Below are positions 2,807 to 52,046 of a DNA stretch of 64,000 bases, one piece after another. Origin of the DNA: Variovorax sp. (GTDB taxonomy: Bacteria > Pseudomonadota > Gammaproteobacteria > Burkholderiales > Burkholderiaceae_C). The stretch lies in assembly GCA_017744935.1 (NCBI GenBank), contig JAGIAI010000025.1, forward strand, positions 1 through 64,000. Direction: 5' to 3'. The notes beneath the pieces were generated by a model, which did not search any database, was not told the DNA's origin, and saw nothing but the letters and a program-made list of their open reading frames with translations. A program made the translations under genes and the position numbers. How positions within the stretch are numbered: position 1 is the first letter of the stretch; each line of letters starts with the position of its first letter.

Positions 2807-2920
2807 ACTCGCCCCCAGGCTGCCCGCACTTCGCGTCGCTTCGCCAACCCCCTGCCGGGGGCAATGCCAGCGGCCCGGCGAAGCCGGTTCCGCGGCATTT
2901 CGCGGCGCTGCGTGTCAGTC
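2807..2920. repeat. Dispersed intergenic repeat, copy A
   Basis: Contains ccccctgccgggggcaatgccagcggcccggcgaagccggttccgcgg, shared with the copies at 8.4 kb and (split) 29.3/41.6 kb. Confidence 0.7.
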
Positions 2921-8420: not shown

Positions 8421-8520
8421 GGGCTCTCCCCCAGCCTCGCCCACTTCGTGTGGCTCGGGCACGCCCTCTCCGGGGGCAATCCCGGCGGCCCGGCGGAGCC
8501 GGTTCCGCGGGATTCCTGGG
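8421..8520. repeat. Dispersed intergenic repeat, copy B
   Basis: ccccagcctcgcccacttcgtgtggctcgggcacgccctctccgggggcaatcccggcggcccggcggagccggttccgcgg; matches copies A and C. Confidence 0.75.
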
Positions 8521-28043: not shown

Positions 28044-29243
28044 ATGCTGCTGAACCTCTACCGGCGCCATCTCTACGTCCGCATCTGGCTTGCGGTCGTG
28101 GCGGGCGTCTTCATCCTGACGCTCACGGCCAACTGGATCGTGCGCGAGGCCGCCGAGTACGAGCGTGAACGGCTTGCACCCGTGCCGCGCGACGTCGTGG
28201 TGCTCGACGACCAGGACCGCCCCATCGGGCGCGGCAAGGCCATACGCGTGCCGGGACAGGGCCTCGACTTTGATGTCGACCTGGGTGACGGTCGCAACAT
28301 CACGCTGCGCGTCGGACCACGGCCCCAGATGGGTCCACCGGGCGGCCCGGGCCCAGGCCTGGCGCCCTGGCGCTCGCCGTTCGGGCTGGGCTGGATGGTG
28401 GCGCTGATCGGCGTCGCCGTCGCGCTGGGCGTCTATCCGATCGTGCGTCGGCTCACCAAGCGGCTCGAAGGGCTGCAACGCGGCGTCCAGAGTTGGGGAG
28501 AAGGCGACCTCTCGGCGCGGGTCGTCGAAGAGGGGCAGGACGAAGTCGCCGACCTGTCGAAGCGCTTCAACCTGGCGGCCACCCGCATCGAGGAACTCGT
28601 GCGTTCGCACAAGTCGCTGCTCGCAAACGCATCGCACGAATTGCGCTCGCCGCTCGCGCGCATCCGCATGGGCCTGGAACTGATGGGCGGCGAGCGCCCC
28701 AGCGCGGCCGTGCGAGAAGAGATCTCACGCAACATCGCCGAACTCGATCAGCTCATCGACGAGATCCTGCTTGCTAGCCGGCTGGATGCGAAGGAAGCCG
28801 ACATGGGCACCGTCGAAACGGTGGACCTCACGGGCCTTGCCGCCGAGGAATGTGCGCGGGTCGATGCCGACCTCGAAGTGAGCGAAGGCACTCAAAGCGA
28901 CGTGCTCACGGTGCGGGGTGTTCCACGCCTCCTGCGCCGCGCGATCCGCAACCTGCTTGAAAACGCCCGCCGCTATGGCGCCGGCGAAACCAGCGTCGAA
29001 CTGGCGAGTCGCGGCAACCTCGCCGAGATCCGCGTCAGCGACCGCGGCCCCGGTGTGCCGGCTGCGCTGCGCGATCGCATCTTCGAGCCCTTCTATCGGC
29101 TGCCCGGCGCGAGCGAACGCAATGGCGGCGTCGGTCTGGGTCTGGCGCTGGTCAAGTCCATCACCGAACGCCATGGCGGCAGCGTCCGCTGCGAAGACCG
29201 CCCGGGCGGCGGTGCGAGCTTCGTCATCACGCTCCCGCACTAG
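28044..29243 (+). CDS. Sensor histidine kinase
   Basis: HAMP, ANASHELRSPLARIRMGLEL H-box, NLLENARRYG N-box, GVGLGLALVKSI. Confidence 0.93.
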   Translation: MLLNLYRRHLYVRIWLAVVAGVFILTLTANWIVREAAEYERERLAPVPRDVVVLDDQDRPIGRGKAIRVPGQGLDFDVDLGDGRNITLRVGPRPQMGPPGGPGPGLAPWRSPFGLGWMVALIGVAVALGVYPIVRRLTKRLEGLQRGVQSWGEGDLSARVVEEGQDEVADLSKRFNLAATRIEELVRSHKSLLANASHELRSPLARIRMGLELMGGERPSAAVREEISRNIAELDQLIDEILLASRLDAKEADMGTVETVDLTGLAAEECARVDADLEVSEGTQSDVLTVRGVPRLLRRAIRNLLENARRYGAGETSVELASRGNLAEIRVSDRGPGVPAALRDRIFEPFYRLPGASERNGGVGLGLALVKSITERHGGSVRCEDRPGGGASFVITLPH

Positions 29244-29249
29244 AGCTCG

Positions 29250-29298
29250 CCCCCAGCCTCGCCCACTTCGTGTGGCTCTGCACCCCCTACCGGGGGCC
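29250..29298. repeat. Left half of dispersed repeat copy C; candidate attL
   Basis: ccccagcctcgcccacttcgtgtggctctgcaccccctaccgggggc then loses repeat identity; 14-mer cccctaccgggggc at 29284-29297. Confidence 0.65.
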
Positions 29299-29410
29299 GT
29301 AACCGTTCATAAACTGCGTTTCGCTGAGAACGAAAAAGCGGATTTTCAGAGGGAAAACCGCAAAATCCGTGATCAGCGAGGTGCACCGGATTCCACGTTT
29401 TTGTCCCGCT

Positions 29411-29434
29411 TTACGGATACCGTTACGGATACCG
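29411..29434 (+). repeat. Tandem 12-mer x2 (ttacggataccg) upstream of integrase
   Basis: Exact tandem duplication; possible arm-type integrase sites. Confidence 0.6.
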
Positions 29435-29460
29435 CCCTGCGCCATGTTCAACCCTTTTCG

Positions 29461-30619
29461 ATGGACGACATGGCCGACTACAGAATCGACACCCCCGCCG
29501 CCCGCGCGAAGCTCGCGCCGCGCCGCAAGCCCTATTTTCACAAGATCCTGACGAACCGCTTCGTCGGCTTCCGCTACATGACCCCCGGGCACCCCGGGGA
29601 CCCGGAGCGCCAAGCGCCAGGAAGGCCGCAAGGAAGTCGCCCTCCCGCTCGGGACACTTGACCACCTGGCCGAGAAGGATCGCTTCGCCTTCGCCCTCAA
29701 GGCGGCCCAGAAGTGGTTCGACGAGCAGGATACCCTCACCAAGGGCCAGACCATCATCCCGTCGAAGATGACGCTGCGCCAGGCGGTACAGGCCTACATC
29801 GTCGAGCAGGGCAAGAAGACCAAGAACGGCCTGGAGGCCGCGCGCTCGACGCGCTCGCGCTTCAACCTGCTCGTGGTGCCCTATGCCGACGAGAACGGCC
29901 GACGCTGGATTGATACCCCGATCGCCAGGATCACCACGGCCGAGTTCGCAGCCTGGCGCGAGTGGGTCGTGAAACTGCCAGTCACCCGAACGGGCGCGAT
30001 CGCCGGCAAGCCGCGCAAGGCCTCGACCGTGAACCGCGACGTGGCGAGCTTCCGGGCCGCGCTTAACCTCGCAGCGAAGGTTCACCGCTTGCACGACCAC
30101 TGGAGCGAGGTCCTCAAGCGCGACCTCGTCGGCGACGAGGGCCGGGGCTCGGAGGTCTATCTCAAGCCGGGGCAGCGTGCGGACCTGCTCGCCTCGGCAG
30201 CCGAGCTCGCACCCCACCTCCGGCCGCTCGCCAAGGCAATGCTCATCGTGCCGATCCGCCCGGGTGCCTTGGCCGCGCTCACGGTCGCCGACTATGACCG
30301 CCGCAAGCACAGCTTGTGGATTCACACCGACAAGGTCAACGCGGGCCGCTGGGTGACCCTGCCCGCCAGGAATAAGGACGGCACCCCGCACGAGTCGGTG
30401 GCGCTTCTCGCTGACCTGGTCCACCACAAGCTGCCCGCCGCGCCGCTGTTCGCGAACGACGGCGGCGGCCACTGGAATGCCAAGACCTGGAACGTCGCGA
30501 TCAAGGAAGTCGCCGCCGCGGCGAAGCTCCCGAAAGAGCTGACGATCTACTGGCTGCGCCACTCGCGCATCACCGACCTGATCACCGCGGGCATCGCGCC
30601 CATGACCATCGCCAAGATG
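29461..30619 (+). pseudogene. Tyrosine-recombinase integrase, frameshifted and 3'-truncated
   Basis: MADYRIDTPAARAKLAPRRKPYFHKILTNRFVGFRYM in frame 1; GTRSAKRQEGRKEVALPLGTLDHLAEKDRFAFALKAAQKW onward in frame 2; YWLRHSRITDLITAGIAPMTIAKMAG then homology ends. Confidence 0.8.
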
Positions 30620-30620
30620 G

Positions 30621-31076
30621 CTGGAAGTCGTCAAAACAGTTTCCACCCCACTCTTCTGGGCGGTAACCGTGGTGTGTAGCTTGCTGATCAACATCGCGAG
30701 CAACTATCTGCAGCGCCGCCTGGACAAAGGGCATGCTTGGTTCGCACGGTGGAAAGGCGCTCGATCGGCCGCGAGGCAAGCATCGCATGACCGGCAACTG
30801 AGTGACCTCATTCAACATCCGGACCTTGTTGAGCCCTACATTGCTCGCGAAGGTCGTCTCTGGGCCGCAGCGGTGTTGTCCTGTCTTGCCGCCCTGGTGC
30901 TTGCGGCGTTCTACCTTCTTACTGTTCAGGCGGCGGATAGAGGGCCGTCCTACACGGTCATTCGCATGGTTCTTTCTGGGATTGGGTCTGGGCGTACTGG
31001 CTGGAGGACTTGCCCTAATGACATCGGCGACTCAGGCCGCCGATGTCCTGATTGCTCTCGGCCGCGCAAGGCGTAG
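30621..31076 (+). pseudogene. Membrane protein fragment without recognisable start
   Basis: EVVKTVSTPLFWAVTVVCSLLINIASNYLQRRLDKG; two hydrophobic segments; 5' end fused to the integrase remnant; C-terminus appears frameshifted. Confidence 0.45.
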
Positions 31077-31282
31077 CGGTCATCTTGCGCAGCTTGGCGA
31101 GCAGAACCAGCGCGATGATGAACGGCAAGGAAGTACAACGGCCGAAGAGGCTGATTCAGCCTCGTCTACTCGGTAGTTGGCCGAGAACGCGGCGCGCGCC
31201 TCGGAAGCGCCCCCTCTAAACTTGTGGCAACCGAGCCGGCCGGGCGCTCCGTCCGCCCGAACTTCAGATAGAGACTCGACCA

Positions 31283-31320
31283 AAGGCCCCCGATGGCCAC
31301 GCTCGGGGGCCTTGCTTTTT
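31283..31320 (+). terminator. Rho-independent terminator
   Basis: AAGGCCCCCGA-tggccacgc-TCGGGGGCCTT followed by gcttttt. Confidence 0.8.
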
Positions 31321-31476
31321 CAAGCGCTGCGAAACGGCCGCAGCTGCATTTTCGGATTTATCTGATGGACTCCCCGTGGACGCCCTTCTTAGAGTGGCGG
31401 CTTAAAGGCGCACGCTCTCTCTTTCTGCGCGCCTAGAAGCTGAATACCCGCGCGCTTCGACGCGGCAAGAAGAACA

Positions 31477-31715
31477 GTGGCATCGCTTTCCCCGAGGGAG
31501 GAAGGGCGCAGGGCGGTCGCGTGCCGCGCTCCGGGACTCTCAATATCTGCTGTCACATCTTTGCTCCTCGCAGGGCTGGCTTTGCCGTTCGCGGCTCAAG
31601 CGCAACTTGCATCGAGCCCGCGTCCTGCGATCGAGGAGCAGCGCCAGCAGGAGCGCGAACGGGCTCTGCGCGAGCAGCAGGAGCGCAGTGTCGACGCGCG
31701 CATCGAGCGAACACC
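31477..31715 (+). pseudogene. 5' remnant of CdiB/ShlB-type TPS transporter
   Basis: SAVTSLLLAGLALPFAAQAQ signal peptide then RPAIEEQRQQERERALREQQERSVDARIE; homology then stops. Confidence 0.6.
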
Positions 31716-31719
31716 GTCG

Positions 31720-34427
31720 ACAGCACGCGTGCCGTCGCCTCGGAGATCGGCGGGCGCACCGTCACCATCGTCGCGGGCAACGACATCGGCGTGAAGGGCT
31801 CCAACATCATCGGCGACCAAGGCACCACGCTGGTCGCCGGCAGCGACATCAAGATCGAGTCGGTCACCGAAACCAGGAACACCAGCGGCAGCAACCAGAT
31901 CAGCCGCAGCGGTGTCTTCTCATCCGACGCGGCCGTCACCTTCGGCAAGCAGGAAGAGCAGAGCAGCATTCGCCGCAGCAGCACGAGCGCGGCCGGCAGC
32001 ACTGTCGGCAGCATCTCGGGCAACGTGAATATCGTTGCCGGCAACAGCTACAGCCAGGTTGGCAGCGACGTGATTGCGGCCACCGGCGATGTGAACATCC
32101 TCGCCAAGGACGTTCGCATCACCGAAGCGCGCGAGACCTCGCAGACGCACACCGAGCAGCGCTACCGGCAAAGCGGCATCAGCGTTGGCGTGAGTTCGCC
32201 GCTTCTCGATGCGGGCATGGCCGCGCGTGATCTGGCCGAGGCTTCGGGGAAGACCGAGAGCAGCCGGATGCAGGCGCTGGGGGTTGCTGCCGGAGCGGGC
32301 ACCGTCCACAACGGCAAGAACGCTCAGGAGGCCGCAAACGCCAGGGCTGCGGATGCTGGGTCTTCAAGCCCGATGGCCGGCAAGTTGACGGTGACCGCTG
32401 GTGGCAGTCGCAGCGAAAACACCAGCGATCAAAGCGCCAATACCGCGAAGGGTTCGAATGTTCACGCGGGCGGCGATGTCAACATCATGGCGCTGGGCGG
32501 CGGTGCGGATAGCAACATCCTCATCCAGGGCAGCAACGTCAGCGCGGGCAAGAACGTCAACCTCGCGGCCGACAACAAGATCGAACTGCTGGCGGCGGAA
32601 AACACGGTCAGCCACAGCAGCTCTAGCAGTTCCAGCGGCTGGAGTGCAGGCGTCGGGTTCGCGAGCGGAAGTCAGAACGGCGTGACCTTCGAGGTCGGCG
32701 CGAACACCGGCAAGGGCAGCAGCGATGGCAGCGGCACCTACTGGACCAACACGCACGTCACCGCCGGCAACCAGGTCAACATGATCAGTGGCGGGGACAC
32801 CACGCTCAAGGGCGCGGTGGTTTCGGCCGATCAGGTCAATGCGCTGGTCGGCGGCAACCTCACCATCCAGAGCTTGCAGGACACGAGCGTCAACGCGTCG
32901 AAGCAAAGTGGCGGTGGCTTCTCGGCCAGCGTGTGCACGCCGCCCTTCTGTTATGGCGATAGCAGCGCAAGTGCCAATGCATACAACACGCACGCGAACG
33001 GCAACTACGCGAGCGTGACGGAGCAAAGCGGCATCAAGGCGGGGGACGGCGGATTCAACGTTCACGTCGCGGGCGACACGAACCTCATTGGCGGCGTGAT
33101 CGAGAGCACGCAGGCGGCTGTCGATCAAGCCAAGAACAGCTTCAGCACCGCTAACCTCACGATCACTGACATCGCCAACGTCGATCAGCAGACGGGTGGC
33201 GGCTGGAGCGTGAGCGTCAGCACGGACGGCAGCAAGCCCAATGGATCGTCGGCGGGCTTCTCCAACCTGGATGAAGGCCAGGAAAGCGTGACGCGCTCGG
33301 GCATCTCCGGCATCGCGGGCGATGAGAGTGTGAGGACCGGCGACAACAGCAGCGTCGGGGCACTGGCGAATCGCTGGAACGAGCAGCAAGCGATGCAGGA
33401 CCTCGCGGCGCAGCAACAGATCACGGCGGCCTTCGGGTCAAGCGCGGCGACCGCTTGGGGCGACTACGCGAACAAGCAGGAAGCGGCTGCGCAAACGGAC
33501 GAAGACAAGGCATGTTGGAGCGCATCGGGCGCATGCCGTGCGGCGGGCCACATGGTCATCGGGGGCCTGTCTGGTGGTGTGGAGGGACTGCTCGGGGCCG
33601 GTGCAGCCACGCAACTGGCCGGAACCATCGATCAGGCCGTGACGAATGCGGGCCTGACCGGTGCCGCGCACGACGCGGTAGTGGCGGGACTGACGACGGC
33701 CGTGGGTGGTGCGCTCGGTGGAACGGCCGGTGCGGCTGGTGCTTACAACGAGGTGACGAACAACTACCTCTCAAGCAAACAAGTGCTCGAGATGATGGAC
33801 CAGCTGCGCGAGGCTGAAACCCAGGCCGAGCGCGACAAGATCCTGAAAGACTACGCAGACTTGAGCGGCCGGCAAAGCGCGGAGGCCAAAGGTTGCACGT
33901 CCCAGTGTGACGCCATCGCCGAAGATGCTTACGGGGGCAAGCAGGCGCTCGACTCGGTTAAGAACGAGCTGAAGAATTTGGCTGGGGATTCGTCTGTAGC
34001 GGAACAAATCCTAGGAACGCAAAAGAACGACAGCCTATTCTTCACTAGCCTCGGCAATGGCTGGATTGATTCGCATGGAAATCCTATCGATATTTCCAAA
34101 CAAATGCGCCAGACGGGTAAGGATATGGCGGACAGCATTTCGTCGGCAGCTGCGTACGCTTCAGCTGGATGTGCGACCGTTGTAGTGTGCGCTCCCGCTA
34201 TTCCAGCATTTACGGCGGCCGGCTTTTGGACCGGGATGGCGGGGTCTTTTATATTCGACGTCAATCCTGCTGGCGCATTTGTAGACACTGCCATTGATAA
34301 GTCGATCGATACGATCAGATATAAACTGAAAGTGCCCGCCTTGATTTCTACTTCAATCGCAGAGGGCATAAAGGGATCAAAGGAGATGAGTGACTGGAAG
34401 GACTCGCTATCAATTGACAAGAGGTAA
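31720..34427 (+). pseudogene. C-terminal portion of CdiA-like filamentous haemagglutinin with variable C-terminus
   Basis: Haemagglutinin-type repeats (GDIGVKGSNIIGDQGTTLVAGSDIKI..., GDVNIMALGGGADSNILIQGSNV); VTNNYL pretoxin-like junction at about 33753; no N-terminal TPS domain. Confidence 0.78.
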
Positions 34428-34429
34428 TT

Positions 34430-34687
34430 TTGAAGAACCTATTTTATAAATACTCGATACTCGGAGTTCCTTTGGGGGCTTCGGGTTTTCTATTCAACTC
34501 GCCTTGGATTAGTTACCCACTATTTGTTGCCGGAGCCTTTATTTGTGGATTTGGATGGATGATTGGCATGGAAAAGGCGGGGCAAGAAGCATTAGAGAAG
34601 CAAAACAAAAAAAAGAAAGGGAAAAGAGAAGATGAAAAAAGACCTCTAACTCAAGGCCGAGGTCAAGTCGCAAGAACATCCCTTTGA
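34430..34687 (+). CDS. Small membrane protein, candidate CDI immunity
   Basis: TTG start 2 nt after the cdiA' stop; two hydrophobic segments; low GC relative to surroundings. Confidence 0.5.
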   Translation: MKNLFYKYSILGVPLGASGFLFNSPWISYPLFVAGAFICGFGWMIGMEKAGQEALEKQNKKKKGKREDEKRPLTQGRGQVARTSL

Positions 34688-35235
34688 AGAATTCCATCAA
34701 CACTCCCCAGTCTTCTGCAAGACTCAGTTCACAAGCGTCAATGATGAATACATATACCACCCGATCCATTCGTACGCCTACTCAGCCCGAGGTTGCATCA
34801 AACGAAGGGCCTTCGGGCTTCGGCGGATGGCTTCTTCTGCCGCTGATATCCATCACGCTTAGCCCCCTTCCGTTCGCCGCTGGCGCCATGGGTCTTTGGA
34901 TCGGCATGTCTGACAAATGGGGTTCCACGTGGGAACAAAACGCCCCACTTGCTGTTCTGTGTGTAGGCGAAATTTTGGCCAACCTCGCGCTCATGTTCTT
35001 CGCCCTGAATGTCGCTTCGCATTTCTGGCGAAAGACCAAGGAAACACCGTTGCTCTTCACCCTGCTCATGGGCATTAGCCTAGCTGTCCTTGCGCTCGAC
35101 TACATCCTTAGTCTCGCATTCTTCAACGGGGATCAAGTTCCCGGTCGCGGTCTAGCCCGTCAGGCAATTGCATGCGCCATCTGGATTCCCTATTTCCGTG
35201 TCTCCAAGCGGGTCCGGAACACCTTCGTTCGATAA
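34684..35235 (+). CDS. DUF2569-like integral membrane protein
   Basis: GFGGWLLLPLISITLSPLPFA; four hydrophobic segments; overlaps upstream ORF. Confidence 0.5.
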   Translation: MKNSINTPQSSARLSSQASMMNTYTTRSIRTPTQPEVASNEGPSGFGGWLLLPLISITLSPLPFAAGAMGLWIGMSDKWGSTWEQNAPLAVLCVGEILANLALMFFALNVASHFWRKTKETPLLFTLLMGISLAVLALDYILSLAFFNGDQVPGRGLARQAIACAIWIPYFRVSKRVRNTFVR

Positions 35236-35304
35236 GCGCTGCCGCCGCGGCATTTACACGACAGCACTCCGTGGCTGAACCCAATTTCAACGTACACCCA
35301 CATC

Positions 35305-36048
35305 ATGCGCCCTGGAAAGTCCAACTCGCCAGCGATGTACGGCATCAAGCGTAGCTCCGACTCCGAAGCCTGGGCCGTGCGATTGAGCCGCAAGGGGAAG
35401 ACGCTCTACAAACAGTTCTGCTTCAGCCTCTACGGTGGTGAACAAGCAGCACTCGTGCGTGCACAAGTCTGGCGCGACGAGATAGTCAGGGCTCATCCGC
35501 TGATGCCTCGGAGTCAGATGGCCGCCATCGTCCGGCGCAACAACACGAGCGGTATAGCGGGCGTCTCCTGCAGATTGGGGCCGGATGGCGAACCTCGGTG
35601 CTGGACTGCCAGAACTCTGATCGCAGCCAACACGGAGCTGCGTGCCTCATTCAGTGTTACTCGCTATGGCGCGCAGGCCAAACAGTTGGCGATTGCCGAG
35701 CGAGAGAAGCAACTGAAGCAATTGATAGGGCTGACTCACGTGCATAGTGCGGAGGCAATTGTTCGAGTCTCGTCGCCAAGAGAGTTGCCGCCCGATCTTC
35801 CCGTCCCCGTCACAAAGCCCCTGGTTGCCCGGCGAGACAGCAGAAGCGGCATTGCCGGTGTGTACCACCAAACTAAGCGGGAGAGTGACCCAGGACGATG
35901 GTGCGCGCGTACCAACATAGGGGGCGGAAAAATCCTTGTGAAGTCCTTCTACGTCAAGCAGCATGGCGAAGAAAAGGCCAAAGAGTTGGCGATCGCCGAG
36001 CGCAAGCGGCAGCTTGAGCAGGTTCGCGGCGTCTCCGCCCGGCCCTGA
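35305..36048 (+). CDS. AP2-like domain protein with three repeats
   Basis: YGIKRSSDSEAWAVRLSRKGK..., SGIAGVSCRLGPDGEPRCWTARTLI..., SGIAGVYHQTKRESDPGRWCARTNI..., the last two ending AIAEReKQL/AIAERKRQL. Confidence 0.65.
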   Translation: MRPGKSNSPAMYGIKRSSDSEAWAVRLSRKGKTLYKQFCFSLYGGEQAALVRAQVWRDEIVRAHPLMPRSQMAAIVRRNNTSGIAGVSCRLGPDGEPRCWTARTLIAANTELRASFSVTRYGAQAKQLAIAEREKQLKQLIGLTHVHSAEAIVRVSSPRELPPDLPVPVTKPLVARRDSRSGIAGVYHQTKRESDPGRWCARTNIGGGKILVKSFYVKQHGEEKAKELAIAERKRQLEQVRGVSARP

Positions 36049-36054
36049 ATTGCC

Positions 36055-36201
36055 ATGCTCGACACTATAAAAGCGTCCCTGCGCCTCATCGCAACGATCC
36101 TGGCCGCCGCGCTTCTGACTGGCTGCGGCGTCCTCGGCTGCGTCGGAGCTGGAAGCAACAGCGGGTATTCCGCGGGGTGTGGGACCAACGTGCGGTTCTG
36201 A
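36055..36201 (+). CDS. 48-aa lipoprotein-like peptide
   Basis: MLDTIKASLRLIATILAAALLTGCGVLGCVGAGSNSGYSAGCGTNVRF; lipobox LLTGC; not in the supplied ORF list. Confidence 0.55.
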   Translation: MLDTIKASLRLIATILAAALLTGCGVLGCVGAGSNSGYSAGCGTNVRF

Positions 36202-36229
36202 GGGCTAGCGTACCAGCCCGCGTTCGCGG

Positions 36230-36574
36230 TCATTCCTTGCTGGCGGCGCCAGTGCGCGCCGCGAACATCCACCCCGCCACGGCCTCGACGAACCGCGCCC
36301 CGGAGAAGCTCGCGACCACGACGAAGGCCAAGCCCGCCCAAACATCGAACGCCCCCGATTCGCTCAGGAGGAACGCGAGCGTTCCGGCCAGCCAGCCGCT
36401 ACCCATGTGCGCGGCGCAAAGGAGCAGCCTGCGCGTGAACCCACCCGGCAAGTCGGCGCCATCGACCCACAGGCAGCGCTCGATCCGCACCAGCAGCGCG
36501 ACCACCGCCGACGCCGTCGAGAGCCCGGCCGACACGGTCATCAGCGGCAGCGACAGCACGAAGGGCGTGCGCAT
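36230..36574 (-). CDS. Holin-like phage membrane protein
   Basis: MRTPFVLSLPLMTVSAGLSTASAVVALLVRIERCLWVDGADLPGGFTRR; about 3 TM; next to tail fibre. Confidence 0.5.
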   Translation of the reverse strand: MRTPFVLSLPLMTVSAGLSTASAVVALLVRIERCLWVDGADLPGGFTRRLLLCAAHMGSGWLAGTLAFLLSESGAFDVWAGLAFVVVASFSGARFVEAVAGWMFAARTGAASKE

Positions 36575-36588
36575 CTCGTTCGGGTCGA

Positions 36589-38227
36589 TCACCGCGAGCC
36601 GCCTTCCAGGATCGCCATGCGCTCTTCCAGCGCCTCGACCACGCGAGCAAGCTGCTGGATGGCATGCAGTGCATCCACGAGCATGGCGAGCGTGTCCACG
36701 GTCTTGTAACGCCCCGCGTCGCTCACCCACTCCGCATCGATCGTCTCGATCTCCTGGGCGATCACGCCGATCGTGTGCAGGTGCCCGTCGTCCACCTTGA
36801 TCGTCGCCGGGTGGTCCTCCGGATCGCCCTCCTGCGACTGCCACGCGAGCTCCGGCCGGAAGCGGAACTGCCGGAACCGAAGGCGCATGATCTTGGCGAG
36901 CGAATCATCCGTGCTGTCCGCGATCTCCATCTTCAGGCGCTCATCCGATGCGTTCGTCGGCACCAGATATCACCATAGCCCGCCAGGCCGCACAGCAGTT
37001 GCAGCACGCCGTTGTTGCGGATGTTGCGCGTCGCGGTGTCTCCGTTGTTGAGCCAGTACTCGCCCTGCCTGCCCATGAAGCGGTCGGCATTGTCGGCGTT
37101 GCTTGCCCGGCCCGCGCTGTTCGAGTAATTCGCGCTGTTGGCGTAGCTCACATTGAGGTTCCCCGGCTGCACAAGGAACTGGAATTGCCCGTCCCCGGCC
37201 GTGGCCCACAGGTACGGCGGGTTGTAGTTCAGGTTGTTGTAGGTCCAGCCACCGATGCCATTGACCATGTAGGCATTGCTCGCGGAGGCCGCATAGTCCG
37301 CGCTGGCGCTGCTGTCAGCGCGCCCCGAGGTGGCCGAGCGCGTCGCGTTGCCGGCGTTCGTCGCCACGGCCGCGCGCCCGCTCACATCGATAGGCCAAGC
37401 ATCGCCGAAGGCATCGCCCTCCACCGACACCAGCAGCCGCATCAGCGTGGCGCTCCAGCCGATGCTGACCGGCTCCAATCCTTGCCCAGGACCCACACCC
37501 TGGCGCACGGGCGTGAAGCCCAGCAGCGCATCGACGCTGCGCAGTGCGCAGGCCTCACCCGTGGCGTCGAGCGCGATGGCATGGTTCGCGAGAGCGGCAC
37601 CATCCCCCGGCCCCCCCGGCACCGGAAGCCCGAGTTGCCTGAGCGTCGTGGGCCACCCGCTGCCCGTGATGACCCAGTCCGCGAAGGTCCCGCTGCCCTG
37701 CGCCATCCCTTCGCCCACGACGAGGTCCATCGCGCCCGTCGCCGCGTCATAGCGGCCCACCACCGCGTTCATGCCCACACCGGCCGGATCGCTCGCGAGC
37801 GCGATGTGCACGAACTGGCCCGGCGCCCACAGCCGCCCGGGGTCCGTGATGAGCGTGCGCGTGCCTTCGCCGACCGTGAGCGAGGTGGTGCTCGTCCCAG
37901 GTGCTGCCGGCGCTGCAGCAGCAGCCCGCGCCGCTTCCTCGGCCGCCAGGCGAGACACCTCCGACGCCTGCGCCGACGCGCTCGCATTGGATGCACTGCC
38001 GACCGCCGCCAGCGCATCGGCATGCGTCTCGTCCCCGCGCTCGTTCATGTAGCCGCCCAGCGCGTTCGTCCGTCGATCGTCGCCGGCAGCGCCCCCAGCG
38101 TCGCATCCGCGCGCACCGCGAAGTTCTGCGGGTCGTTGCGTTGCGGCACGGGCGTGGGAATGGGCGGCACCACCGGAGGCGGCACCAGCGCGGCATTTTT
38201 GGGCGTGAAGGCGGGCTTCGCTTTCAT
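36589..38227 (-). pseudogene. Phage tail fibre with C-terminal S74-type intramolecular chaperone, split into three frames
   Basis: MKAKPAFTPKNAALVPPPVVPPIP... / NALGGYMNERGDETHADALAAVGS... / PTNASDERLKMEIADSTDDSLAKI...HTIGVIAQEIETID; apparent frameshifts near 38070 and 36964. Confidence 0.75.
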
Positions 38228-38237
38228 GGGGATTGCC

Positions 38238-39119
38238 TCAGGTGAGGCCCTCGATCTCAAGCGTGCAGAAGGAGTGCGTGTAGTGCGCGATGTCCACGCT
38301 GAAGCTCTTGTAGAAGCCGTAGACGATCAGCGCCCCGAAGCGTTCGTCATTGCCGTTCCAGATCAGGGGCGTCGCGCGGTACTTCGCCAGCAGCCGACAG
38401 ACCTCGTCCACCAGGATGTTGTCCACCAGCACGTTCGCGCTCATGCGCTTGGAGAACGCACGCTCCACCACGAAGTAGTCGCCCCAGGCATCCACTTCCT
38501 TGCGCGAGTAGTCGTTGATCGACAGGTGCGGCGAGATCTGCGTCACGCCGAAGATGCGCGACTGCCCGACGATGATCTCGCCCACCGCCACGTCGTTCAC
38601 CGGCTTGGAGATCGTCACCGTCAACTCGCCTTCGAGATACGGGGGCACATTGGCGAAGCTCACGTCCGTGCGCGCGCGGAACTGCGCGAAGAAGTACTCG
38701 AACCAGTCGGTGATGACCTCGCTCGTGCGCATGTCGCGTTCATCGCGCCACACCGTCTCGCCAGCATGGTCCAACGCCACCTCCACGAGCTCGGCATCCA
38801 CGTTCAGGATCGCCACGTCGCTGATGATCCCCGCGCGCAGTTTCACGACGATCGGCGTCGGTCCCTTCGACTGGCTGCCCACCCGCTGGTCGAACATGGC
38901 CCAGGTGTTGGTCGCGCCGATGTCGAGCCAGTACTCGGGGTTCGCGCGCGGGACCACGCCCGTGCCGTCCTGCACCGCCTCCCAGATGCGCCGCTCGTGG
39001 ATGACCTGGTCTCCGACGATGAAGGCCGCCACCATGTCCCACGCGGGCAGCGCCTCGTCCACCACGTTGCTGTAGCTCAGCGTGGCCGGCGTGATGGGCG
39101 TGGGGATGATGACCTTCAT
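38238..39119 (-). CDS. Phage tail-associated protein
   Basis: Carbohydrate-binding-like DMVAAFIVGDQVIHERRIWEAVQDGTGVVPRANPEYWLDIGATNTWAMFDQ; between tape measure and fibre. Confidence 0.65.
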   Translation of the reverse strand: MKVIIPTPITPATLSYSNVVDEALPAWDMVAAFIVGDQVIHERRIWEAVQDGTGVVPRANPEYWLDIGATNTWAMFDQRVGSQSKGPTPIVVKLRAGIISDVAILNVDAELVEVALDHAGETVWRDERDMRTSEVITDWFEYFFAQFRARTDVSFANVPPYLEGELTVTISKPVNDVAVGEIIVGQSRIFGVTQISPHLSINDYSRKEVDAWGDYFVVERAFSKRMSANVLVDNILVDEVCRLLAKYRATPLIWNGNDERFGALIVYGFYKSFSVDIAHYTHSFCTLEIEGLT

Positions 39120-41041
39120 GCCGAAGTCCTCACGCGTTGCATGCGCGGGAGCCGCGGTTCGGCCCGTTCGGCCTCGTCGACATCCCGCACGCGCAGCGCA
39201 TCGCCGCCCTCGCTCAGGCGATCCAGGAGGTGATAGGTGCGTTGCCCCATGCTGGCGATGGCCGCATCGCCCGTGCGGCCCTCCGTGCTGCCGCGGGCCA
39301 GTTCTTCGAGCAAGGCATCCAGCAATTGGACGATGCGGTCCTCGTGCGAGCGATCCGGAGCCGTGTGGGAAGCGCTCGGCCGGTCCCAGATCCGGGCGTC
39401 ATTGGCGGCATGCCCCCGAATCGCGGCGCCCAACTGCTGCTGGTTCCAGATGCGCGACGCCCCGGTCGCCTCGACCTCCCAGCCGCGCTCGCCGACCAGA
39501 CGCAGCCCGCCCGCGTGCAGGCCACCCGACGCGAAGCCCGGCAATACACCGCCCGCGAGGATCGCCCGCGCGAAGTCCACCAGGTTCGCGTTGATCGCCT
39601 GCAGCTCGATGATCTGCCGTGCGCTCGCATCCGCGATCACCTGCTGGATGCTGGCCTGTTCCTCCGCCTGCTCCAGCACCGCCGCGAGCTTGGCCTCGGT
39701 GAGCGCCCGGTCGCGGAGGTACTCCACGCGCGTGCCGCTCGTGCGCTCGGAGGCTTGCAGGAAGGCGGTCGCCGAGCCGCCCACGCGCTTGGCCGCCTCG
39801 ATGTCGCCGGTGTCCCCGGAGAGAGCCTGCACCACGTTCCGGTCGAGCTGCGCGAGGCCCCGGGCGTATCGCATGGCCGGGTCGATCAGGTTCTGCGTGT
39901 CCGCGCGCAGGCGCTCGATGTCGCCGCGCAGGTTGTTGGCGACCGAGCGCCAGGCATCGGCCGCGGACTGCGCCGTGCGGATGATGTCCACCTGGGCCTG
40001 CGCGGAGGCCTCGGCCGCGTCGGCCACCTCGGCGAACTGGCCCGCGAGGCTCATGAGCTGTCCGAAGAGCTGCGCGCCCGCGTCGGTGGAGGTGTCGAGA
40101 CTCTCGACCAGCGCGCGGAAGGCGTCCTTGCCGGCCGGCACGGCCACGCCGATGCGCTCGAACTCCTCGGCGAGGCGAGATGCTTTCGCGGCGTTCTGTT
40201 CCTCCTCGGAGAAGAACGCATCGAAGCAATCCTGCAGGCCGCTTTGCAACTGCTCGATGCCCCCGGCCCCACGCACCATCATGGCCGAGAGATCCAGAGC
40301 TTGCGCACCCACCGAGCGCATCGCGCCGCGCACGTCGGTGAGCACCTTGTACAGGTCGATCAGTTCGTCGTAGCTGCCGGTGAAGATGTCGATGATCTCG
40401 CCCACGCCCGTGAGCGCACCCGAGGCGGTGTATTCCAGCGCGGTGACCGACTGCCGCACGATCTCGGTGGCCAGGTCCCCGCTCTTGTTGAGGACCTGCG
40501 TGTAGTCGATCGCGGCGACCCCGAACTTCTCCAAGGCGTAGTTGGCTTTCTCGACATCGGCCGAGACGCGCACGAGCGTCTCGAACAGACCCTCGCCGAC
40601 CCTCTGGAATTCGGCGATCGTGGGCACGGCCGCGCGCGCGATCTGGTCGCCGAGGCTTGAGAAGAGCGCCTCCAATTCGGCCTGCGCCTCCTGGCCCGAC
40701 TTGCCCATGAGCGACAACTGGCCGCCGCCGACGATGCCGAACATGCGCATCATGGACGTGTCGCCCAGGTCCGGCAGGATCGACAGCATGCGCGACATCA
40801 TCCCGGGGTCGTCGAGCTTGAGGTTGTGCGCGGCCATCCCCACGGCATCCACCATGCTCACCACCATCGACGTCATGGAGTCGGTCAGCTCCGAGTCGAG
40901 CGCCGTGTACATGGCGCTCGCGCCCTTTTTCTTCGCCCAGGTGACGACATGGCCCACGGCCTGCACACCCTTGGTGATCATGTCGCCGACGGTCTGCGGC
41001 GCGAAGGAGATGCCGCTCGCGATGGTCTCGCCGCCGCTCAC
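39116..41041 (-). pseudogene. Phage tail tape-measure protein, 5' truncated
   Basis: Long helical protein ending FASGGLHAGGLRLVGERGWEVEATGASRIWNQQQL; begins abruptly at the 41.04 kb junction. Confidence 0.7.
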
Positions 41042-41042
41042 A

Positions 41043-41569
41043 TGGAAACCTGAAGCCCACGGCGACTTCGAAGCCTACGCCGCGATCTCCGAGCGAAACA
41101 AGGCGGTCAAGGACGACCCCAGCATCCCGATTTATGTGGGGAAAGCCGTGCCCAGGGTGCCCGCAAGGGAAAGGTCATGGCGGACCCAACGCGCTCGAAG
41201 GCGTTGTTCAGCCGCCTCGTGGAGCACGCCGAATCGGTGGGCGCGAGCAACACGCTCTCTGTCGACGACTTCTCCTGCCGCTACCTCGTGGTGGACGAGA
41301 TCTGGATTCCCCTCGGTGAATCGCTGATGATCACGAAGTTCTCGCCGCTGTGGAACCTGTTCGTCGAGGGCTTTGGCAATCACGATCCTGGCAAGGGTCG
41401 CTACGAAGGACTGCGCCCCCGGTGGGACGTCATTCATCCCGCACGGGCATGGGCCGAGAAGTGCACGCCAAGACAAGAAAGCGAAGCAGACATCCTGAGC
41501 GACGTCCGCACGCATCTGGCGTCCATCGTCATGCCGCAATCAGCGCATTTCCTCGGGCGCGGGGCCTGA
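41043..41569 (+). pseudogene. Eco29kI-family (GIY-YIG) restriction endonuclease, 5' truncated and frameshifted
   Basis: DPSIPIYVGKAVPR in frame 3, then GARKGKVMADPTRSKALFSRLVEHAESV...CRYLVVDEIWIPLGESLMITKFSPLWNLFVEGFGNHDPGKGRYEGLRPRWDVIHPARAWAEK in frame 2. Confidence 0.75.
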
Positions 41570-41580
41570 ATCCCCAATGA

Positions 41581-41605
41581 AAGCCGCATTTTTGGCTTTA
41601 TTTTC
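41581..41605 (+). terminator. Rho-independent-like terminator
   Basis: AAAGCC-gcattttt-GGCTTT-attttc. Confidence 0.5.
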
Positions 41606-41611
41606 ACGAAG

Positions 41612-41685
41612 CCCCTACCGGGGGCAATACCTGTGGCCCGGCAAAGCCGGTTCCACGGTGTTTCGCGAAGGGGCCTGGCTGCGCC
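41612..41685. repeat. Right half of dispersed repeat copy C; candidate attR
   Basis: cccctaccgggggcaatacctgtggcccggcaaagccggttccacgg; 14-mer at 41613-41626. Confidence 0.65.
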
Positions 41686-41726
41686 GGCCCTATTTGGGTG
41701 GGAGGGGGAACTAGATAATTGCCTTT

Positions 41727-42959
41727 ATGAGATCAAACATCGTCCGCCCCGCCGCAATGTTCTGGGGCCTCACGGTGTTCATGCCGGTCGGCGTCACCTA
41801 CGTTGCGGCCGTCCTCCTGCTCATCACGTTGTTCGCGGCCGGTGGCTTGCGCGAGCGCGCCATTCGGCTGCGCGGCAATCCGATGTGGTGGCCGGTCGTG
41901 TTCTACGTGGCGTGGACGCTGATCGTGCTGGTCATTGGGCCGCACTATCCACAGACCGGATCGAACCTGGGACACGGACTCCGCATCGCTGCGACGGTGC
42001 TGATGGCGCTTGCGCTCACGGATGAGGAAGCCATCTGGGCGCTGCGCGGCTTCTGGATCATCGGGCTCGTCAACATCGCGATGATCGGGCTCTACTACTC
42101 GGTCGGCTTTCCGATGCTGGAGCCATGGCGGGGCGTGCTGATCCTCGTGGGCAACAAGTCGATCAGCAATGCCCTGCTCTTCACCATCATGGCGGCGACG
42201 GCGGTGGTGTTCGGCCTCAAGTCACTCATGGAGCACCGACCCTGGCGCGTGCTGGCCGCCCTCGCGCTGGTGCTGGCGGTGGCCGCGATCATCACACTGA
42301 CCCTGATCTCGCGCACCTCGCTGCTCGCGCTGCTGATCGCCTCGGCCGCTGCTTGCGTGCACAAGTGGCGCCGGCAGCTCAAGCTTCTCGCGGTGGCGAT
42401 GGTGGTCGGCGGCGCGGTGGTCGCCGTGGGGCTCTGGAATTCGCCGGGCGTGCAGCAGAAGTTCGAGCTCGGCATGCATGAAATCGAAGCCGCGCAGGCC
42501 GGCTCGGTCTCTGAAGGCAGCTGGGTGGTGCGCTACTACATGTACCGCGACACCGCGCGGATGATCATGGACCGCCCGCTTGCCGGCTGGGGCATCGGCG
42601 GATGGACCGAGCAGTGGCATCTGCGCGGGCCGAGGCTGCTCGCGGACTACAACATGCCGCACAACGACTTCCTGTGGATGGGTTCGCAGGCAGGCGTACT
42701 GGGTTCGCTCAGCCTGCTGGCGATCGTGCTCACCGCGGTCTGGATCGCGTGGCGTCGCGACGATGTCGCGGGTCGCTATGCCTTCGTCGCGACGCTGATC
42801 CTGCTGATCGCCACCAGCCTCAATTCCGCGCTTCGCGACGCGCAGATCGGGCTCTCGATCCTGTGGATCACGATGGTTTACCTGCGTCTCGCGCAGGCGC
42901 CAGGTGATTCATGGCGCGGCCTCTTGCCGCAGCGGCTTGCGGCGCGGCTTCAGACCTGA
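41727..42959 (+). CDS. O-antigen ligase/polymerase-family membrane protein
   Basis: Multi-TM; RPLAGWGIGGWTEQWHLRGPRLLADYNMPHNDFLWMGSQAGVLG. Confidence 0.85.
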   Translation: MRSNIVRPAAMFWGLTVFMPVGVTYVAAVLLLITLFAAGGLRERAIRLRGNPMWWPVVFYVAWTLIVLVIGPHYPQTGSNLGHGLRIAATVLMALALTDEEAIWALRGFWIIGLVNIAMIGLYYSVGFPMLEPWRGVLILVGNKSISNALLFTIMAATAVVFGLKSLMEHRPWRVLAALALVLAVAAIITLTLISRTSLLALLIASAAACVHKWRRQLKLLAVAMVVGGAVVAVGLWNSPGVQQKFELGMHEIEAAQAGSVSEGSWVVRYYMYRDTARMIMDRPLAGWGIGGWTEQWHLRGPRLLADYNMPHNDFLWMGSQAGVLGSLSLLAIVLTAVWIAWRRDDVAGRYAFVATLILLIATSLNSALRDAQIGLSILWITMVYLRLAQAPGDSWRGLLPQRLAARLQT

Positions 42960-51693: not shown

Positions 51694-52046
51694 TGTTGGC
51701 CTCCCTGAGGTTGCGGTTTGCAGAAACCACCGCTCCCGAGACCAATCGAGGGCGGCAGCTCGACGAGTTGGTCTACCGGGCAACCTCTTGCGAGAAACCG
51801 GCCGGGCTCGCGCCCGCCCGTCGAGCCGCCATAAGGGGCACGACGCGGCGAGGCCGCAAAACCTTGCAGACAGAACTGCGACCTTCGCCGCAGAGATTGC
51901 ACGGGAGACCAATCCCGATCACGCCCTTTTTCGACGCGACGGGCGCAGTATGCCAGCGGCACCGAATGCCGCGTTGTGCCCAGCCCCGACAAGTGCTACG
52001 GTCGAACGCCCTCCGGCCCAACCGCTCATTCAACGAAGGAGCTGCC

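Follow-up and report, generated by a model that had tools for sequence, protein, structure and literature searches.

A small integrative element probably entered the middle hairpin of a high-copy intergenic repeat in a Variovorax genome

Introduction

How did a small genomic island come to lie between a sensor histidine kinase gene and an O-antigen-ligase-like gene of a Variovorax genome, and what served as its attachment site? Tyrosine-integrase islands mostly hold one unique site per genome. An earlier note on this DNA had proposed that the integrase used a dispersed intergenic repeat, not a tRNA gene, as attB. We follow up this proposal in the window, that is, the whole analysed stretch of 64,000 nucleotides, and in the genomes of relatives.

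Three known systems provide the frame for this question. Genomic islands with an anticodon-centred attP in tRNA genes are a standard class (Islander class A, PMC4383910). The filamentous prophage Nf1, or MDA island, of Neisseria meningitidis inserts in dRS3 repeats, which are 20 bp long and present in ~650-725 copies (PMC3898611). REP/BIME intergenic repeats are mobilised by RAYT transposases (PMC2817692).

Results

The 14-mer CCCCTACCGGGGGC occurs exactly at both ends of the 12.3-kb island (Table 1), and a search of the whole window at up to 2 mismatches returned 4 matches vs 0.64 expected. The earlier note had described this direct repeat and placed its left copy correctly, while the right copy, given as 41613-41626, was off by one and lies at 41612-41625. 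As had been claimed, joining the flanks in silico restores a full repeat, and the joined sequence had been quoted correctly; the restored repeat is ~91 bp long and has three hairpins. When the joined 115 bp were used as a whole-genome query, at least 38 other places were found at 82-92% identity, most of them over 85-115 bp. On the repeat HMM the left half runs to position 54 and the right one from ~38-41 onwards, the overlap being the 14-bp core, and it is the middle hairpin that is broken by the island. Both boundaries are weak covariance-model matches (55 and 53 bits), nearly all intact copies scoring ~60-114. In the 1.74 Mb of the 6.0-Mb genome that were examined in detail, a selection favouring repeat-carrying contigs and holding 75 full copies, no left-half-only copy occurs besides the left boundary. 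Matches to the right half alone are several there, the right boundary among them, and those inspected resemble variants with a different 5' hairpin. A chance 14-mer is ruled out, since the two flanks complement each other as halves of a single repeat copy and the genes on either side adjoin in relatives. Homologous recombination between two complete copies is likewise ruled out, since each end carries only half a copy.

Table 1. Coordinates of the island, its flanking genes and the repeat copies in the window.
Feature	Position	Strand	Evidence or remark
Intact repeat copy	2807..2899	+	Sequence; covariance model
Intact repeat copy	8423..8514	+	Sequence; covariance model
Sensor histidine kinase gene, left neighbour	28044..29243	+	94% identical protein beside ligase gene in G019
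Left half of split repeat with core; attL, host side	29245..29297	+	Repeat HMM positions 2-54; 53/53 identical to intact G019 copy
14-bp core, left copy; middle hairpin CCCC-TACC-GGGG	29284..29297	+	Sequence; hairpin in consensus fold
TTTTCAGAGGGAAAA motif between core and int	29343..29357	+	Sequence; near-identical motifs flank core of C52 element
Tandem direct repeat ACGGATACCG x2, probable integrase arm-type sites	29413..29434	+	Same position and style as relatives' GGATACTTTTAGGATACT and CCGTACTTTTTCCGTACT
Tyrosine integrase pseudogene	29470..30640	+	PF00589; frameshift near 29590; C-terminal end lost after ~30640
Filamentous-haemagglutinin-repeat protein, probably fragment of larger FHA/CdiA-type gene	31521..34427	+	PF13332 E 9e-55; phrog_27049 positions 2418-2966 of 3480
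DUF2569 membrane protein	34684..35235	+	Domain match
AP2-domain protein	35305..36048	+	Domain match
Phage tail gene remnants, including tape-measure fragment 39116-41041	36933..41041	-	PHROGs; distant phage homologues
Eco29kI-type restriction endonuclease, C-terminal part, beside right boundary	41177..41569	+	PF09517 E 6e-45, profile positions 55-164 of 164
14-bp core, right copy	41612..41625	+	Sequence
Right half of split repeat with long tail; attR, host side	41612..41717	+	Repeat HMM positions 38-92; aligns with G019 copy
O-antigen-ligase-like gene, right neighbour	41727..42959	+	94% identical in G019; adjoins kinase gene in most relatives examined

The ancestral empty site is seen in island-free strains, the comparison that the earlier note had suggested. 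In most relatives examined the island is absent and the histidine kinase gene lies directly upstream of the ligase gene. This holds for the closest relative, G019 (contig C19), whose flanking proteins are ~94% identical and whose kinase-ligase gap contains an intact repeat. When the reconstructed site was compared with the whole G019 genome, the best match was this same-gap copy (94% over 108 bp), with 53/53 bases in agreement across the left half plus core. With an identical att core at both island ends, the G019 copy reads as attB. It is inverted relative to the reconstructed site (alignment score 198 inverted vs 17 direct). The opposite orientations of the kinase-ligase repeat (window 29244-41726 vs L042 in G019) may reflect either an in-place inversion or separate insertions.

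As the outcome that would speak against the proposal, the earlier note had named close relatives with another, unbroken sequence between the two genes. No such sequence is seen in the closest relative; the more distant ones vary, their gap having the repeat in either orientation or none, and the absence in some of them is consistent with the gain and loss of the repeat seen at other loci. The window contains no tRNA gene, and the island boundary lies in a repeat hairpin and not inside a tRNA gene. Together with the adjoining flanks in island-free relatives and the unbroken repeat of G019, this supports the view that the repeat was attB.

An alignment of 27 copies folds the ~91-bp repeat into three hairpins, with paired changes on both sides of the stem at 7 of 26 base pairs. 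Its covariance model matched 114 places at E≤0.001 in the 6.0-Mb draft genome, corresponding to ~110 copies, and detected the repeat in 32 of the 41 genera sampled in the family. The exact core is found at 13 genome places, two of them being the island ends. At the copies examined, the placement of the repeat was read by eye as intergenic, and inverted pairs are present in G019. Within the window, with its two intact copies, Rfam gave the repeat no match at gathering score; on another copy its only match was sub-threshold and at chance level. Outside the island, Rfam matched a C4 antisense RNA at 51748-51836 on the minus strand (54 bits vs gathering score 45).

Comparison of orthologous loci suggests that the repeat is often gained and lost between close relatives. 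Among 13 loci with flanks in both genomes, this genome lacks the main G019 copy at 7 and has it in the same orientation at 5, while at the remaining one, the island locus, the copy is inverted; where the G019 copy is absent, the gap in this genome is short. The absent orthologous copies were noted at G019 loci L229, L233, L235, L237, L238, L241 and L243 against contigs C107, C39, C11, C27 and C54 of the present genome. A RAYT as mobiliser of the repeat is unsupported: the genome has a single Y1 transposase (Y1_Tnp) gene as candidate, and no repeat copy was found in the DNA examined around it.

The island encodes an integrase with a recognisable catalytic domain (PF00589, 31.4 bits vs cut-off 27.1; phrog_1, E 6e-21). 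The C-terminal IEKHYGHL region with the Tyr nucleophile is missing, the N-terminus is frameshifted, and int is fused to foreign sequence at ~30640. The integrase is a pseudogene that would now be unable to excise the island, and its activity is not inferable because it is broken. A search for close relatives of the integrase gave no match in phages, one of 31% in plasmids, and two of 38-39% among 398 genomes of the order. In the tree, the branch of the window integrase is too long for a placement among the tRNA users. The right end of the island had no match in 101 other congeneric genomes. Among the cargo, the haemagglutinin-repeat protein (31521-34427) is possibly what remains of a CdiA-type gene, with small ORFs then following downstream.

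In public genomes we found 80 wider relatives of the integrase with 31-42% identity, 74 of which had enough upstream DNA to be tested. In 70 of these 74, the 3' half of a tRNA, on the minus strand and broken in the anticodon arm, lies just 5' of int. Some of the exceptions use protein-coding genes as att (gene names by eye): L078 and congeneric G022 an acyl-CoA synthetase gene at its 3' end, with a 50-bp direct repeat, and L139/G067 a permease-like gene at its start, with a 16-bp direct repeat. The integrase family therefore switches its target occasionally. Congeneric loci with ends of protein-coding genes as att are L165/L166 (G022) and L163/L164 (G067). The same genome also carries, on contig C52, an intact 11.3-kb relative whose 45-bp att direct repeat ends at the anticodon loop of a tRNA-Val. 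This element (G000, ~72.6-84.0 kb, L158) encodes int, an AAA_25 ATPase and an ORC-CDC6-like protein.

The left end of the island has the same order as the C52 element, namely core, motif (here TTTTCAGAGGGAAAA), tandem arm repeats (here ACGGATACCG twice) and int, and its layout of core, tandem direct repeats and int also matches that of the relatives. The counterparts of the TTTTCAGAGGGAAAA motif in C52 are ATTTTCATTGGGAAAAT and TTTTCAGAGGAGAAAA, the latter near its right end. The core lies 216 bp from the N-terminal ARAKL motif in the window, the median for 21 relatives being 179 bp. No arm repeats are present in the 260 bp read at the right end of the island; the C52 and G067 elements have them at both ends, in tandem in C52.

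We also compared the core with those of the tRNA users. A weight matrix was built from 22 distinct tRNA cores of the relatives, leaving the window out, and the reconstructed empty site was scanned with it on both strands. Among ~445 positions the window core comes first when 10-11 columns are used and second when 12-14 are, a result that is suggestive only, the matrix being C-rich and one offset having been chosen by eye. It fits an enzyme that would read a C-rich hairpin arm and take the repeat's middle hairpin instead of the anticodon stem. The core measures 14 bp in the window vs 45 and 50 bp in two relatives.

A second insertion into the repeat by this integrase family was found neither among the 80 wider relatives nor, apart from the window, among the four integrases of the family found in 102 congeneric genomes. 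The earlier note had further suggested looking for related integrases beside other copies of the repeat; in the 1.74 Mb examined here, none of the 75 full copies has another integrase of the family within 3 kb.

Discussion

According to our analysis, the island is likely an integrative element that entered the middle hairpin of the repeat by site-specific recombination, with an integrase whose relatives target tRNA anticodons. We posit that a small element would have integrated conservatively into the middle hairpin of the intergenic repeat between the kinase and ligase genes, bringing along a tyrosine integrase whose relatives use tRNA anticodon arms. Its attP would have shared the 14 bp CCCCTACCGGGGGC with the repeat, and therefore the repeat would have been split and the core duplicated. 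The C-rich run CACCCCCTACC of the repeat hairpin appears to resemble the usual anticodon stems GACCCCTACC or GACCCCTGCC, which plausibly permitted the change of target. Afterwards, the island may have decayed and rearranged, the integrase no longer excising it. The split repeat, the ancestral empty site, the tRNA use of the relatives and the matching attL layout are observed; from them we infer that the recombination was carried out by the window integrase and that the hairpin mimics an anticodon stem. The retargeting from tRNA to repeat hairpin is well supported, by a single decayed example. Against it stand the broken integrase and its long branch, the missing arm repeats of the right end, the short core, and the lack of a second repeat insertion in the genomes and relatives examined.

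The boundaries could alternatively stem from two elements that used the same repeat, one providing the left end with int and the other the right end with the tail genes and the Eco29kI fragment, which were joined by a later deletion. The repeat would still be attB, and the right boundary would not have been made by the present integrase. The cargo gives some reason to consider such an origin, as it reads as a mosaic of unrelated fragments on both strands, and its right end may derive from another element; the lack of arm repeats at the right end and the fusion of int to foreign sequence point the same way. However, the 14-bp core is identical at both boundaries, and the 12.3 kb of the island are near the 10.4-11.3 kb of the three relative elements that were measured, so that we regard two elements as rather unlikely.

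An event without any integrase is much less probable still. Either a transposon-like element would have inserted and duplicated a 14-bp target, or an incoming fragment would have recombined illegitimately with the repeat; such an event would suit a dead integrase and fragmentary cargo. Yet the ends read without terminal inverted repeats (left CGTAACCGTTC, right TTTTCACGAAG), and the left end has the full att layout of the integrase type. An artefact of assembly or binning, in which unrelated contigs were joined at the repeat, deserves a thought in a draft genome of 118 contigs that is 88% complete and 5% contaminated, given that assemblers fail at repeats. Two independent errors would have to hit complementary halves of a single copy, share an identical core and fall between genes that are adjacent in relatives, and we consider this hardly credible.

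The preferred reading, entry by site-specific recombination into the repeat hairpin, relates to each of the known systems in part. As with Nf1 in dRS3, where hundreds of potential sites result, the target of a phage-type element is a short intergenic repeat in high copy that bears terminal inverted repeats. Unlike in that system, the target here is a ~91-bp repeat with three hairpins and ~110 copies, and the enzyme comes from a tRNA-using family of tyrosine integrases, whereas Nf1 is a filamentous phage. Repeated insertion is also a feature of the dRS3 system, while only one insertion is known here (in 1.74 Mb of genome). With Islander class A the locus shares the integrase family (tRNA use in 70/74 relatives), the core just 5' of int, arm-like tandem repeats at the left end and an element size of ~10-12 kb in the relatives measured. 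It differs in that its target is not a tRNA gene and that the island is without a target-rebuilding segment, so that the repeat remains split. The window repeat may resemble REP/BIME sequences in being high-copy, apparently intergenic, hairpin-forming, often in inverted pairs, and present or absent between close relatives. The window repeat is longer, with three hairpins, and was not found associated with a RAYT; its status as a REP is not established.

In the open-access literature we found no report of prophage or island integration into REP-type repeats beyond dRS3. The present case joins an anticodon-type integrase with a high-copy repeat target, a variant that appears to be new in this literature. 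If the target did change from a tRNA arm to a repeat hairpin, one site would have become about a hundred, and many potential attB sites per genome, as the earlier note had suggested, are a possibility. It would also mean that integrase specificity can drift while the C-rich hairpin that is recognised is retained. The further-reaching idea, that the integrase lineage switched to a high-copy, structured repeat whose middle hairpin mimics the anticodon stem and that its elements could enter many places per genome across the family of repeat-carrying bacteria, appears doubtful to us. The case also highlights a three-hairpin intergenic repeat spread across many genera of the family. With its paired stem changes and no Rfam match in the stretches searched, this repeat perhaps merits a description of its own.
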